From positions 62,001 through 126,000 of the forward strand of contig NZ_PYHR01000002.1 in assembly GCF_003121705.1 (NCBI RefSeq): DNA of 64,000 nucleotides. Direction: 5' to 3'. Source of the DNA: Serinibacter arcticus (GTDB lineage Bacteria; Actinomycetota; Actinomycetes; Actinomycetales; Beutenbergiaceae). Positions within the stretch are counted from its first letter, which is position 1. Each line of letters starts with the position of its first letter. The translations under genes were made by a program, and so were the position numbers. Shown here one piece after another: positions 28,583-32,072 of the stretch. The notes under the pieces were generated by a model. That model ran no database searches. It was not told where the DNA came from and was given only the letters and a program-made list of their open reading frames with translations.

Positions 28583-29128
28583 TCAGCCGACCTGCGAGTG
28601 ACCGCCCGTGCGGTGGTAGGTGCGGTCGACGTAGACCAGGCGCGGCTGCTCGACCTGGGCGTGCGGCGTCTCCTCGTGCACGTGCGTCACGTCCGCCGTC
28701 ACCAGGAAGCTGGAGCCGGCGGGGATCCGCTCGGCGATCTCCACGCGGGCCCACGACGTCACCTGCGCCAGCCGCGGCTCACCGGTCGGCAGCCACTCCA
28801 GCGGCGTGTCGGTGAACCGGTCGATCCCCGGGGTGGCGAACCGGACCGAGAGGTCGGCCTGGTCGTGGGCGAGGAAGCTCACGACGGCGGAGTGCGCCTC
28901 GCGCAGGGCCGGCCAGGAGGAGGACACCCCGGTGATCGAGAAGGCGAGCACCGCCGGCGAGGCCGAGACCGAGATCACGGAGGTCGCCGTGAAGCCGACC
29001 GGGGCGCCGTCGGGACCGACCAGCGTGACGATCGCGACGCCCGCCGGGTGGTGGCGGAACAGGTCCTTGAACGCCCGCGGGGACGGGACGGCGGCGGCGT
29101 CGAGGGAGGTGGGGTGCGGTGCGGTCAC
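28583..29128 (-). CDS. Flavin reductase-like FMN-binding protein
   Basis: The 181-residue protein is a flavin reductase-like domain protein: FRHHPAGVAIVTLVGPDG, GFTATSVISVSASPAVLAFS, and YVDRTYHRTGG are typical of the HpaC/SsuE-like FMN reductases that feed reduced flavin to a partner monooxygenase. It is divergent from a luciferase-like monooxygenase gene across a regulated 640-bp region, so the two probably make a two-component system. TAGGTT at 29135-29140, 6 nt before the GTG, gives a leaderless mRNA. It is convergent with proB. Confidence 0.85.
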   Translation of the reverse strand: MTAPHPTSLDAAAVPSPRAFKDLFRHHPAGVAIVTLVGPDGAPVGFTATSVISVSASPAVLAFSITGVSSSWPALREAHSAVVSFLAHDQADLSVRFATPGIDRFTDTPLEWLPTGEPRLAQVTSWARVEIAERIPAGSSFLVTADVTHVHEETPHAQVEQPRLVYVDRTYHRTGGHSQVG

Positions 29129-29246
29129 GCTCCGAACCTACGTCCGTCACCGGCCGAGCGTCGGGGTGCGTCCCGTCCGTCCATCATGCGGACCGCGTCG
29201 AACGGATGCGGGTGACCGCTCACATCGCGTCAGCACCGCGTCGACG

Positions 29247-29269
29247 ATTGAGTTGACACATCAACCAAT
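29247..29269. promoter_or_regulatory. Inverted repeat overlapping the -35 of the sulfur-regulated promoter
   Basis: ATTGAGTTGA (29247-29256), spacer CACA, TCAACCAAT (29261-29269): the arms match except for one extra base in the left arm. It covers the TTGACA -35 hexamer, so a bound regulator would block the monooxygenase promoter. The AT content stands out from the surroundings. The regulator is unknown. Confidence 0.5.
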
Positions 29270-29282
29270 GTGGTCGTAGCGT
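29253..29282 (+). promoter_or_regulatory. Promoter of the SAM-IV/monooxygenase transcript
   Basis: TTGACA (29253-29258), a perfect -35, and TAGCGT (29277-29282) are 18 bp apart. Transcription would start near 29289, immediately before the riboswitch P1 strand at 29292. Confidence 0.7.
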
Positions 29283-29291
29283 CGTGTCCAC

Positions 29292-29405
29292 GGTCTTGAG
29301 TACCAGCGCGTAAGCCCCGGCTTGCTGGTCGGCAACCCTCCTCCTGCGGTGGGGTGCCCCGGGTGACGACCAGGCCCTGGCTACCTGCCAGGGCAAGCGC
29401 TCGTC
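29292..29405 (+). ncRNA. SAM-IV riboswitch
   Basis: The conserved core is present in order: GGTCTTGAGTACCAGCGCG, AAGCCCCGGCTTGCTGG, TCGGCAACCCTCC, GCGGTGGGGTGCCCCGGGTG, ACGACCAGGCC, then a CCCTGGC/GCCAGGG stem and GGCAAGCGC, matching the actinobacterial SAM-IV aptamer as I recall it, including both strands of the pseudoknot. It senses S-adenosylmethionine and normally lowers expression of sulfur genes when SAM is plentiful. Here it precedes a cysteine-rich leader peptide and a flavin monooxygenase. SAM-I was excluded because the K-turn/P2 sequence of that class is absent. Confidence 0.92.
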
Positions 29406-29438
29406 CGCACCACGCGGAGATACGAGGAACAGAACACG

Positions 29439-29528
29439 ATGGTCACGGAACGGCAGATGAAGTCCCTGCGACGCTCCACCACGTCCCTCATGTGTTGCAC
29501 GCCGTCGGCGTGCACGTGTATGCGCTGA
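29439..29528 (+). CDS. Cysteine-rich leader peptide (29 aa), probable attenuator
   Basis: The small ORF encodes MVTERQMKSLRRSTTSL followed by MCCTPSACTCMR, with four Cys codons near its end. Poly-Cys leader ORFs upstream of sulfur genes act as cysteine-responsive attenuators in mycobacteria, and related putative leader peptides occur before sulfur genes in many actinobacteria. The Cys codons lie within a perfect TGCACGCC/GGCGTGCA hairpin (29497-29515), so ribosome stalling at low Cys-tRNA would change downstream folding. It starts about 35 nt after the SAM-IV aptamer. Confidence 0.8.
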   Translation: MVTERQMKSLRRSTTSLMCCTPSACTCMR

Positions 29529-29595
29529 CGGCGGCCGGACGAACTCCCCGCGGGCTCCCCGCCCGCTGAGCTCAGCCGCTGGTGAGAACCACCAG
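29497..29595 (+). promoter_or_regulatory. Series of hairpins overlapping and following the leader peptide
   Basis: Three perfect stems follow each other: TGCACGCC/GGCGTGCA over the Cys codons (29497-29515), GCGGGC/GCCCGC (29550-29566), and CTGGTG/CACCAG (29579-29595). The last two lie between the leader stop codon and the monooxygenase gene and could act as an attenuator or sequester downstream sequence. The rest of the gap to 29766 has no further feature I recognise apart from a GGAAAGGA ribosome site. Confidence 0.5.
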
Positions 29596-29766
29596 TCTCC
29601 TGCCGTCGTGCCCCGGCTCCTGCTGCCCCGCAGCGGAGCGATCCCGCCCGCACGCCCGACCCACCGCCCTGCCCCAGCCCCGTGCTGCCGGTCGCGGAGC
29701 GGGTCGCGAGCCCGGACGGTCCCCATACACGCATGAACCCTGCCCTGCAGGGAAAGGACCCCTCAC

Positions 29767-30717
29767 ATGTCTCAGCAGCACCCCTCCTCGTCCCCCGCCC
29801 GCACCGGTCTGACGCTCGGTCTCGACCTCACGACGCTCGGCGCGAAGGCCTCGTCCTTCCGCCGCCCGGGCGCCGGTGGCAACGAGCGCGTCTCGCTGTC
29901 CGACGTCGCCGAGCACGTCGCGCTGGCGGCCGCCGCCGGCGTCGACCTCATCACCTTCGGCGAGTCCTTCCGGCTCGACACGACCGCCCGCGCCGACGCC
30001 TGGCTCGACCCGGCCGTCATCGCCTCCCGCCTGGCCGCCAGCGGCGCGCTCACCGGTGGCCCGACGGTCGTGCCGGCCCTGCCGGCCGGTTTCCTCGACC
30101 CGGTCCGCCTGGCCCGCGCCGTCGCCGGCATCCACGCCCGCTCGGGCGGTCGCGCCGGCTGGCAGCTGCCCATCAGCGCCACCGCGGGCGGCGTGCACGC
30201 CGAGGTCCGCCGCGTCTGGGAGGCGACGCCGGACGCGCAGACCGGCGGTCACAGCCCGCTCGTGGTGACGGCGCCGCAGGAGGCGACGACCGCCGTCGTC
30301 GCCGGCCGGTTCTCCGACGTCGTCCGCCTGCAGGTCTCCGACCTCGCCGAGGCGAAGCGCCGCCGGACGGCCATCCGCACCGCCGCCGAGCAGGCGGGCC
30401 GCAACCCCGACGACGTGCGCGTGCTCGTCGACGCGGTCACGGTCATCGGCCAGGACGCGGCCAGCGCACTGTTCCGTGCCGACCTGCTGCGCGACCTCGG
30501 GACGCACACCGACCACGACGAGCTCACCGTGGCCGGCACGGCGCGCGGCGTCGCGGACGTCTTCGAGGACTGGTACACCCAGGGCGCCGTCGACGGCTTC
30601 GTCGTCCTCCCCGGGTCGCTGCCGGCGGACGTCCAGGCGCTCGCCCACGAGCTCGCCCCGGCCCTCGCCGAGCGCGGTCTGCTCGCGGGCGTCGCCGCCT
30701 CCGCCGTCGTGCGCTGA
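29767..30717 (+). CDS. Luciferase-like (LLM) flavin-dependent monooxygenase, sulfur-regulated
   Basis: The 316-residue protein starts [14 protein letters not shown] and has the TIM-barrel pattern of LLM enzymes ([35 protein letters not shown]). Its C-terminal [20 protein letters not shown] resembles the NtaA/SnaA/DszA/DmoA branch, which uses FMNH2 from a reductase to split C-S or C-N bonds; it is shorter than the roughly 450 aa of those enzymes. Control by a SAM-IV riboswitch and a Cys leader, and a divergent flavin reductase, point to sulfur scavenging from an organosulfur compound. The exact substrate is unknown. The ATG follows GGAAAGGA. Confidence 0.82.
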
Positions 30718-30734: not shown

Positions 30735-32072
30735 ATGGCTCTCGAGACCCCCACCATCCCCGTCGTCGGAGGCGGCCCCGCGGGGCCGCCTCCGACCACG
30801 AGCGAGCAGGACGTCACCGCCGGGGTGCACGCGGCCGCGCGTCGCGCCAAGGTCGCCTCCCGCGTGCTGGCCCGCTCGACGCGCGCCACGAAGGACGCCG
30901 CCCTGCACGCCATGGCCGACGCGCTCGTCGCGCGCGCGGACGAGGTCGTGGCGGCCAACTCCGTCGACGTCGATCGGGAGCGCGCCCGCGGCATGAGCGA
31001 GGGGCTGCTCGACCGCCTCACGCTGACGCCCGAGCGCCTGGGGGGCATCGCGGAGGCGCTCCGCGAGGTCGCCGGCCTGCCGGACCCGGTCGGCGAGGTG
31101 GTGCGCGGCTCGACCCTGCCCAACGGCCTGCGGGTGCGGCAGACGCGGGTGCCGCTCGGCGTCGTCGGCGTCATCTACGAGGCTCGCCCCAACGTGACGG
31201 TCGACGTCGTGGGGCTCGGGCTGAAGTCCGGCAACGCCGTCGTGCTGCGTGGTGGCTCGGCCGCCGCCGCGTCCAACACCGCGATCGTGGCCGTGCTGCA
31301 GGACGCCCTGGAGCAGCAGGGGCTGCCGCGCGAGGCCGTCGGGAGCATCGACGAGTTCGGGCGGCCCGGGGGAGTGGCGCTGATGCGCGCCCGCGGGCTC
31401 GTGGACGTCGTCGTCCCGCGTGGCGGGGCCGACCTCATCGCCACCGTGGTGCGCGAGTCCACCGTCCCGGTCATCGAGACCGGGGTGGGCAACTGCCACC
31501 TGTACGTCGACGCCGGGGCCGACGTCGCCCAGGCCGTGGCGATCCTCCTCAACGGCAAGACCCAGCGGGTCGGCGTCTGCAACGCCCTCGAGACCCTGCT
31601 GGTGCACGCCGACGCCGCCGAGGCCTTCCTTCCCGCGGCGCTGGCCGCGCTCACCGACGCCGGCGTCCGGCTGCACGCCGACGAGGCGGCGTCGGCCCAC
31701 GCGCCCGCGGGCGCCGACGTGGTGCCGGCGACCACGCAGGACTGGGAGACGGAGTACCTCAGCCTCGACCTGGCGGTGAAGGTCGTCGCCGACCTCGACG
31801 AGGCGCTGGAGCACATCCGGACCTACACCTCGGGCCACACCGAGGTCATCTGCACGCCGTCGCTGGCCGCGGCGCACCGGTTCAGCACCGAGCTCGACTC
31901 GGCCGCGATCATGGTCAACGCGTCCAGCCGGTTCACCGACGGCGGGCAGCTCGGCCTCGGCGCCGAGCTCGGCATCTCCACCCAGAAGCTGCACGCCCGC
32001 GGCCCCATGGGGCTCGCGGAGCTCACGACCACGACGTGGATCGTCCAGGGCGACGGGCACGTGCGTCCCTGA
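30735..32072 (+). CDS. proA: Glutamate-5-semialdehyde dehydrogenase (gamma-glutamyl phosphate reductase)
   Basis: ProA reduces gamma-glutamyl phosphate in proline synthesis. The 445-residue protein carries [20 protein letters not shown], the catalytic cysteine region [20 protein letters not shown], and [16 protein letters not shown] at 30722-30727 lies 7 nt before the ATG, so it has its own leaderless start after the sulfur locus. Residues 10-21, in a non-conserved N-terminal extension, are encoded by a perfect 32-bp palindrome. It ends before a strong terminator. Confidence 0.96.
30765..30796 (+). repeat. Perfect 32-bp palindrome inside the proA coding start
   Basis: GTCGGAGGCGGCCCCG is followed directly by its exact reverse complement CGGGGCCGCCTCCGAC with no loop bases. 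In RNA the stem would be about 14 bp with a small loop. It encodes VGGGPAGPP in a variable N-terminal tail, 30 nt into the gene, and resembles the strong terminator stems elsewhere in the window, but without a U-tract. Confidence 0.9.

Follow-up and report, generated by a model that had tools for sequence, protein, structure and literature searches.

A probable two-sensor sulfur leader, pairing a SAM-IV riboswitch with a cysteine-codon reading frame, ahead of a probable two-component flavin system in Serinibacter arcticus

Introduction

What does a SAM-IV riboswitch control when the first open reading frame (ORF) behind it is not a structural gene? The question is raised by a 64,000-nucleotide (nt) stretch of the Serinibacter arcticus genome (contig NZ_PYHR01000002.1 of assembly GCF_003121705.1, positions 62,001 to 126,000 of the forward strand; here called the window, with positions counted from its first letter). 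Between divergent genes for a flavin reductase and a short protein of the luciferase-like monooxygenase (LLM) fold, the window carries an aptamer of the S-adenosylmethionine (SAM) class SAM-IV, followed by a 29-codon leader ORF rich in cysteine and methionine codons. We find this arrangement in several families, and the evidence points to a real, conserved two-sensor sulfur leader, built from known modules, ahead of a probable two-component flavin system.

Results

The aptamer, leader ORF and LLM gene occur together

A count of how often these elements co-occur, proposed in a preliminary description of this DNA, found SAM-IV in 24 of the 24 genomes of the family searched, an LLM match in 23, and SAM-IV, leader and LLM together in 22 (one LLM gene being split). 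At all 22 loci with an LLM gene behind SAM-IV (L032 to L053), an ORF of 25 to 34 codons containing 2 to 5 Cys codons lies in between; these include genome G014 (L053), where the LLM match is split. A 23rd genome, G002, has the leader MSQVQVHTVASTRSSYCMHMCHMTVMAMGCPAR and an LLM match in two pieces, while G003, a 580-contig assembly whose SAM-IV contig stops just past the aptamer, has no LLM match. Two-piece LLM matches despite the presence of SAM-IV and leader ORF were seen at L016, L054 and L055 in G002 and at L053 and L061 in G014.

To score leaders uniformly, we applied a fixed rule: a leader had to have a Shine-Dalgarno sequence, span 15 to 45 codons, start between -15 and +165 relative to the aptamer end, and carry 2 or more Cys among its final 14 residues. 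The rule found 20 of 23 homologous leaders (window included), compared with 14 of 690 shuffled leaders, 0 of 13 family SAM-IV loci that precede a desulfurase-like gene (L001, L002, L005 and 15 LLM-type loci excluded), and, for the rest of the order, 3 of 102 SAM-IV loci (7 of 109 having been dropped beforehand for lack of a recognisable core). Requiring 3 Cys gave 17/23, 0/13, 0/102 and 0/690. The three misses (L046, L048 and L049) contain the ORF with its Shine-Dalgarno sequence at a different spacing. Under a looser rule, 7 of the 102 other-order loci yielded candidates, two of which overlap a metY-like gene in a different frame. Under the fixed rule, 20 of the 23 loci thus show what an attenuator calls for, a short ORF that can be translated and holds codons for the amino acid to be sensed.

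Scanning named genomes turned up 28 loci, partly from the same genomes as the 24 above, so that the two sets of counts must not be summed. Here a Cys-rich ORF precedes 20 of 20 short-LLM genes (L062 to L083 without L080 and L082; only the C-terminal part of the L063 leader lies within the searched stretch, and the partial LLM matches L082 and L084 to L089 were not used), and cmscan confirmed SAM-IV in 11 of 12 sources tested, the exception being L080. The arrangement also occurs in nine Georgenia/Oceanitalea loci plus L209, and in two further families. A profile search for further LLM loci matched 61 of 198 genomes of the order at 1e-25. Among 20 places outside the family picked by hand from that list, five carry SAM-IV and a Cys leader (L211, L213, L214, L215 and L216), two carry SAM-IV directly before the gene, one has an RHVDLCR leader without SAM-IV, and at the remaining 12 both are absent close to the gene start. 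The leader starts 30 to 38 nt past the aptamer in four of the five, and was not located for L211. In a quick tree of 53 LLM sequences, with support from the Shimodaira-Hasegawa-like approximate likelihood ratio test (SH-aLRT) only, one branch (SH-aLRT 96) unites 34 sequences, 32 of which carry both elements; the exceptions, L220 and L221, lack both and contain 4 Cys/2 Met and 1 Cys/4 Met.

Layout of the locus

The elements lie in the window as follows.

28583..29128, minus strand: flavin reductase gene (PF01613, 98.6 bits), divergent; product with 0 Cys and 0 internal Met
29252..29265, no strand: inverted repeat GTTGA-N4-TCAAC covering the -35 element, found by eye; similar repeats seen by eye in several relatives
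29253..29282, plus strand: promoter TTGACA-N18-TAGCGT, read off the sequence (TTGACA 29253-29258, TAGCGT 29277-29282)
29292..29405, plus strand: SAM-IV riboswitch aptamer RF00634 (cmscan 104.8 bits, gathering score 38)
29400..29426, plus strand: hairpin CUCGU-CCGC/GCGG-ACGAG between aptamer and leader Shine-Dalgarno sequence, extending into the latter
29424..29429, plus strand: Shine-Dalgarno sequence GAGGAA of the leader ORF, from sequence
29439..29528, plus strand: leader ORF, 29 codons, Cys/Met-rich, MVTERQMKSLRRSTTSLMCCTPSACTCMR
29496..29514, plus strand: hairpin over the Cys codons; 4 of 8 pairs changed on both sides among 6 sequences
29529..29766, plus strand: spacer, C-rich and G-poor (C 0.46, G 0.30), no intrinsic terminator; a possible Rho-dependent termination region
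29767..30717, plus strand: gene for the short LLM-fold protein, 316 residues (PF00296); 0 Cys and 0 internal Met

The divergent gene pair, the promoter, the inverted repeat over it and the riboswitch had all been named in the preliminary description, and all hold. The covariance-model check that it called for returned SAM-IV over the full model length with an expect value of 3.2e-18, as the single SAM-IV aptamer in the window. The P3-loop and 3'-tail strands are positioned as in the published SAM-IV fold; by eye, the candidate pseudoknot PK-2 between them reads UGCG-CGCA in many class A loci and CCGCG-CGCGG in class B (the loci before a desulfurase-like gene), and in the window's clade just GCG with CGC. 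TTGACA-N17/18-TAnnnT stands just 5' of the aptamer in 15 of the 15 loci listed (the window and 14 relatives, from 22 loci in total). A generic promoter scan did not call the TTGACA-N18-TAGCGT promoter, and a repeat search with 6-nt seeds did not list GTTGA-N4-TCAAC, which spans the -35 element and is a possible operator for some regulator. Hairpins of differing sequence occupy the 29400..29426 position in relatives (by eye), and modelling gave no support for an effect of the window's hairpin there.

Three further observations concern these elements. An extended, bulged palindrome, ATTGAGTTGACACATCAACCAAT, lies over the -35 element at 29247-29269, and in several relatives its arms vary yet still match by eye (GAGTTG/CAACTC, GGTTG/CAACC); it is a possible operator and thus a possible third regulatory layer. 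The genome's second SAM-IV (62.5 bits; G000:C2:2656954-2657068, minus strand, L002) precedes a 320-residue ORF with no match in Pfam, NCBIfam or PDB sequences. Three genomes of group f8 (G131, G118 and G105) hold 9 to 10 SAM-IV elements each.

The leader is enriched in Cys and Met codons

The leader ORF begins 33 nt past the aptamer and about 148 nt past the presumed transcription start, with GAGGAA at a spacing of 9 nt. Its four Cys codons all fall within the last 11 codons. The preliminary description had called it Cys-rich, which stands, and the description needs to be widened to Met: residues of 22 leaders (616, start Met excluded) are 12.7% Cys and 9.6% Met. Considering that Met is enriched as well as Cys, we infer that Met-tRNA may be a second input to the leader. 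The choice of Cys codon also differs, with 42 TGT and 36 TGC in the leaders versus 1 TGT and 39 TGC in seven window genes (Fisher p 3e-9, in a test that ignores the kinship of the leaders; the window leader alone, with 2 of 4 TGT, gives p 0.018). A rare Cys codon would slow the ribosome.

The NCBIfam leader models NF042934 (cis_reg_atten) and NF042936 (Ms4527A) matched none of seven leaders (the window's and those of six relatives). A different combination was seen at L184, L185, L191, L193 and L194, where SAM-IV is followed by an RHVDL/RHIDL leader that scores above the NF042934 cut-off in 5 of 5 tested; an SBP_bac_5 gene follows in four, and the L191 sequence ends too early. SAM-IV thus partners leaders of more than one type.

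RNA structure around the leader is conserved

An 8-pair stem crosses the Cys codons in six genomes from the window's clade, with 91.7% of cells paired (a level that 1 of 500 shuffles reaches), four pairs changed on both sides (reached by 9 of 500 shuffles) and a covariation score of 0.367 (1 of 500); versions slid along the alignment score much lower. RNA structure over the regulatory codons, as expected of an attenuator, is thus seen in this clade. The stem is retained in L033 and L034 though their Cys residues are lost, and the six bases immediately 3' of the leader stop codon are invariant in 6 of 6. A second clade (L039 to L049 and L053) has a different hairpin after the stop codon, with 96.4% of cells paired (0 of 500 shuffles as high) and a single pair changed on both sides (a count reached by 460 of 500). 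Taken together, the stems and invariant bases indicate that RNA structure around the leader is conserved, and no complete switch can be derived from them. No intrinsic terminator was found at the locus, and C exceeds G in all 22 spacers, to an unusual degree in the window (a value that 0.033 of random stretches attain) and in four others of its clade. The C-rich spacer and the lack of an intrinsic terminator make Rho plausible, and no more.

The LLM protein is poor in sulfur

A sulfur-poor composition fits expression during sulfur starvation. The window's LLM protein and reductase are the lowest in Cys plus Met of 46 genes called in the window by a crude rule on third-position G+C (some frames wrong), tied with one 135-residue call; at the pooled frequency, 495 residues free of both would arise with a chance of about 1e-4. 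Across 20 named loci, LLM stretches contain 0.10% Cys and 0.22% Met, compared with 0.52% and 1.84% for NadD in 11 loci, 0% and 0.69% for ProB in 11 loci, and 0.62% and 0.41% for the reductase in 12 loci. Given the ProB and reductase figures, we consider the sulfur-poor signal firm for the LLM protein but less so for the reductase. Desulfurase-like proteins under SAM-IV control in the family (465 to 487 residues) lack internal Met in 13 of 13.

The leader ORF occupies the target position of SAM-IV

The preliminary description had proposed sulfur control by layered regulation. Sulfur control is likely, and relatives contribute an architecture conserved across families, covariation of the leader hairpin and sulfur-poor proteins. 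Both layers are present; their relation may be nested rather than parallel. In family SAM-IV loci without a leader, the desulfurase-like gene (PF00266; 284.7 bits to the SufS family model, below its cut-off of 475.1, for the one protein tested) starts 42 to 50 nt past a fixed point near the aptamer end, and leader ORFs start 45 to 56 nt past the same point; at L218 and L230 it is the LLM gene that starts close behind the aptamer, 28 and 32 nt past it. The matching distances place the leader ORF in the target position of SAM-IV, as if the riboswitch controlled the leader, which is why the layers may be nested. SAM-IV stands directly before a SufS-like class V aminotransferase gene at L003, L004, L006 and ten other family loci.

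On balance we favor, somewhat above an even chance, a sulfur-starvation locus whose nested leader takes two inputs, SAM and charged Cys-tRNA (perhaps also Met-tRNA), to govern organosulfur scavenging. Transcription would start just 5' of the riboswitch. When SAM is plentiful, it would bind SAM-IV and impede translation of the leader, and the untranslated C-rich spacer would then be terminated, probably via Rho. When SAM is low, the leader would be translated. An ample supply of charged Cys-tRNA (perhaps Met-tRNA) would then let the ribosome reach the stop codon, and the downstream message would still be attenuated. With charged Cys-tRNA scarce, the ribosome would pause at the Cys codons, the local hairpin would be blocked, and the oxygenase message would be made.

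Several results weigh against this reading. SAM-IV elements in the wider order stand at very different distances from their genes, from overlap to >200 nt. The hairpin evidence comes from 6 sequences only, with 9 of 500 shuffles matching its count of doubly changed pairs, and its pair-type count was not above shuffles. Unusual C-richness is largely confined to the window's clade, where 5 of 7 leaders show it. Three specific switches found no support in modelling. A locally masked LLM start site freed by a stalled ribosome was not supported by a 22-locus folding model, in which mean openness of the site was 0.47 untranslated versus 0.52 in three translated states. An aptamer pseudoknot that frees or hides the leader Shine-Dalgarno sequence was not supported in 21 class A loci (L038 was skipped) and 13 class B loci; leader-start openness was 0.58 with and 0.58 without the SAM-IV pseudoknot (21 loci). 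Pairing of the leader stop region with CYGCCGUCGUGC, as drawn by RNAalifold, was no stronger than in shuffles, with 0 of 22 loci above them (lowest fraction 0.07). The relatives' reductases are not sulfur-free (12 Cys and 8 Met in 1947 residues), and 6 of the 53 LLM sequences, though free of Cys and of internal Met, lack both SAM-IV and a Cys leader in their vicinity. Finally, the fold neighbors of the LLM protein include enzymes that do not act on sulfur: nitrilotriacetate (NTA) and ethylenediaminetetraacetate (EDTA) monooxygenases, riboflavin lyase, RutA and LadA.

The closest contender is that the two layers are independent and in series, with SAM-IV acting alone (by way of Rho, say, or early termination), SAM exerting no effect by way of leader translation, and a separate attenuator formed downstream by the Cys leader. 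We regard this as a real possibility, if a somewhat doubtful one. The elements do occur apart: SAM-IV stands alone 28 nt (L218), 32 nt (L230) or about 41 nt (L169 and L183) before LLM genes, and L223 has an RHVDLCR leader without SAM-IV (24.6 bits to NF042934, cut-off 27). Independence also agrees with the modelling, in which no effect of the aptamer on the openness of the leader Shine-Dalgarno sequence was seen. What speaks for nesting instead is that the leader starts where a directly controlled gene starts in the leaderless family loci, and that the stretch from aptamer to leader shows no sign of a different expression platform.

The LLM protein is a short member of its superfamily

The LLM protein belongs to the PF00296 superfamily (40.4 bits, cut-off 27.9) and falls outside the NtaA/DmoA family TIGR03860 (84.9 bits, cut-off 279.7), which its full-length relative L080 passes at 309.1. 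This agrees with the preliminary description, which had found no clear place for the 316-residue protein in a characterised subfamily. Its predicted model (predicted local distance difference test score 80.9, predicted template modelling score 0.83) shows the eight-fold barrel order, with the barrel predicted complete. The closest solved folds, in the first five rows of a Foldseek search, were YtnJ/CmoJ, NTA monooxygenase and BdsA (TM-score 0.70 to 0.75 by query length, 15 to 21% identity); the riboflavin lyase, EDTA monooxygenase, RutA and LadA matches stand lower. CmoJ/YtnJ also ranked first in a profile search (expect value about 4e-35). Organosulfur oxygenases thus recur among the fold and profile neighbors (CmoJ/YtnJ, BdsA and DmoA, and in the fold search SfnG too).

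The flavin site may be unusual. The window protein has 27 residues between its beta4 and beta5 motifs; this segment spans 17 to 46 residues in the 34 short-group sequences and L215, versus 84 to 99 in 13 of 18 others. Its aligned phosphate loop, at positions presumed to correspond to the phosphate-contact residues of MsuD, reads TAPQEATT without Ser, and the His/Tyr segment appears deleted. In MsuD, the phosphate of flavin mononucleotide (FMN) is contacted by H123, Y127 and S178 (PMC8234197). Judging from the alignment, the window protein appears to be without the usual FMN-phosphate contacts. Because of these apparent losses and the non-sulfur fold neighbors, the preliminary term "desulfurising oxygenase" is something we infer from context and fold.

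These features raise the alternative that the protein kept its barrel, lost flavin binding and took on some other role in sulfur starvation. The shortened beta4-beta5 segment and the Ser-free phosphate loop would fit such a protein. We consider it unlikely: 25 of the 53 sequences retain a Ser in the eight phosphate-loop columns and so have not shared in this loss, a full barrel is predicted, and flavin reductases are found as neighbors. Among 20 named loci, 12 have a PF01613 reductase near the LLM gene, in some cases with intervening genes, and SsuE-like FMN reductases adjoin it in L072 (under the cut-off) and L080. The PF01613 gene supplies the partner reductase expected of a two-component flavin system, and from sequence the two proteins are predicted, and probable, partners. 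Reductase and LLM oxygenase would probably release organic sulfur. A bolder form of the reading that we favor, which we offer tentatively and rate a little short of an even chance, is a nested RNA AND-gate in which SAM-IV gates a leader measuring charged Cys-tRNA (and Met-tRNA), with the output a sulfur-free, stripped-down LLM oxygenase that has a non-classical flavin site.

Other roles for the leader ORF

Leader translation might instead simply be required for the oxygenase, by termination-reinitiation or protection from Rho, with the Cys codons tuning little, as for the ppe2 upstream ORF (uORF) of Mycobacterium tuberculosis, which a riboswitch controls. Riboswitch-uORF pairs are known in actinobacteria (PMC12810186, PMC11260477), but the gap to the LLM gene, 140 to 273 nt, is long for reinitiation, and leaders that otherwise diverge in their residues keep a marked excess of Cys/Met and of TGT close to the stop, which makes this rather improbable. 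That the ORF encodes a functional Cys-rich micropeptide, such as a metal-binding one, would account for the conserved C-terminal residues in the window's clade but is very improbable, as mainly Cys/Met density is retained between clades, L033 and L034 keep the stem without the Cys, and conservation extends to the 6 nt past the stop codon.

Neighboring genes

On the plus strand, the order is an Obg-like GTPase gene, a proB-like gene, the divergent reductase (minus) and LLM (plus) pair, and then proA at 30735-32072, which scores 574 bits with its NCBIfam model (cut-off 289). As proA begins only 17 nt past the LLM stop codon, it might share a transcript with the sulfur-controlled LLM gene. The LLM gene has proA downstream of it in 10 named loci and proB upstream in several.

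Discussion

If this reading is correct, a single leader couples in series an RNA that binds a metabolite and an amino-acid sensor that works through the ribosome, making a natural two-input switch, and one transcript integrates both ends of sulfur metabolism. It would also mark the short LLM family as likely sulfur-starvation proteins, pointing to candidate substrates. Relatives with SAM-IV only, leader only, both or neither offer material on how such leaders are assembled. Each module is already known. In the literature searched, outside which most subscription papers lie, and in the accessible parts of the papers cited here, on which the comparisons below rest, we found no report of the modules being combined in this way.

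Mycobacterial poly-Cys leaderless ORFs, reportedly described by Canestrari et al. in 2020, have the ORF at the extreme 5' end of the transcript. The preliminary description had likened the window's leader to these. The likeness holds insofar as both are Cys-codon leaders; the window leader does not sit at the transcript 5' end, and because it has its own Shine-Dalgarno sequence about 148 nt past the presumed start site, it is not of the leaderless type. Closer in some respects are the Cys-codon leader ORFs that precede cys operons of Mycobacterium and Propionibacterium acnes and cbs of Bifidobacterium longum (PMC1262725), which share with it a short ORF, Cys codons near the stop and no intrinsic terminator. 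For the mycobacterial ones, Rho termination has been proposed, weakly, in the same paper. The window leader differs in being led by a Shine-Dalgarno sequence, standing behind a riboswitch and being rich in Met as well. In Streptomyces lividans, metNIQ is preceded by the metL leader MSTTSDRTPATEATTTPGARCMCRRMCAF (PMC8079986), which has the same length of 29 residues and a similar terminal Cys/Met pattern, whereas its transcript is leaderless, it serves a transporter operon, and no SAM-IV is mentioned with it in the accessible part of that paper.

For the riboswitch, the cryo-electron microscopy structure of SAM-IV is available (PMC6890682), and the window aptamer is a full-length match to the same family. 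SAM-IV in S. lividans stands before a cysteine desulfurase gene (PMC8079986), while that of the window precedes a Cys/Met leader ORF rather than a structural gene. Riboswitches followed by a small upstream ORF are known from M. tuberculosis, as the Mbox-uORF (PMC12810186), which uses Rho-dependent termination, and the B12 riboswitch-uORF (PMC11260477); these respond to other ligands, and no amino-acid-sensing leader is described in the accessible parts of those reports.

For the enzyme, CmoJ/YtnJ, BdsA/DszA, DmoA and NTA monooxygenase are the nearest folds and profiles. CmoJ acts on S-alkylcysteine sulfoxides (PMC10863075); relative to it, the window protein is missing some 55 to 60 residues at each of two places. 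From the NtaA/DmoA family it is set apart by its sub-threshold TIGR03860 score and by fold matches of low identity.

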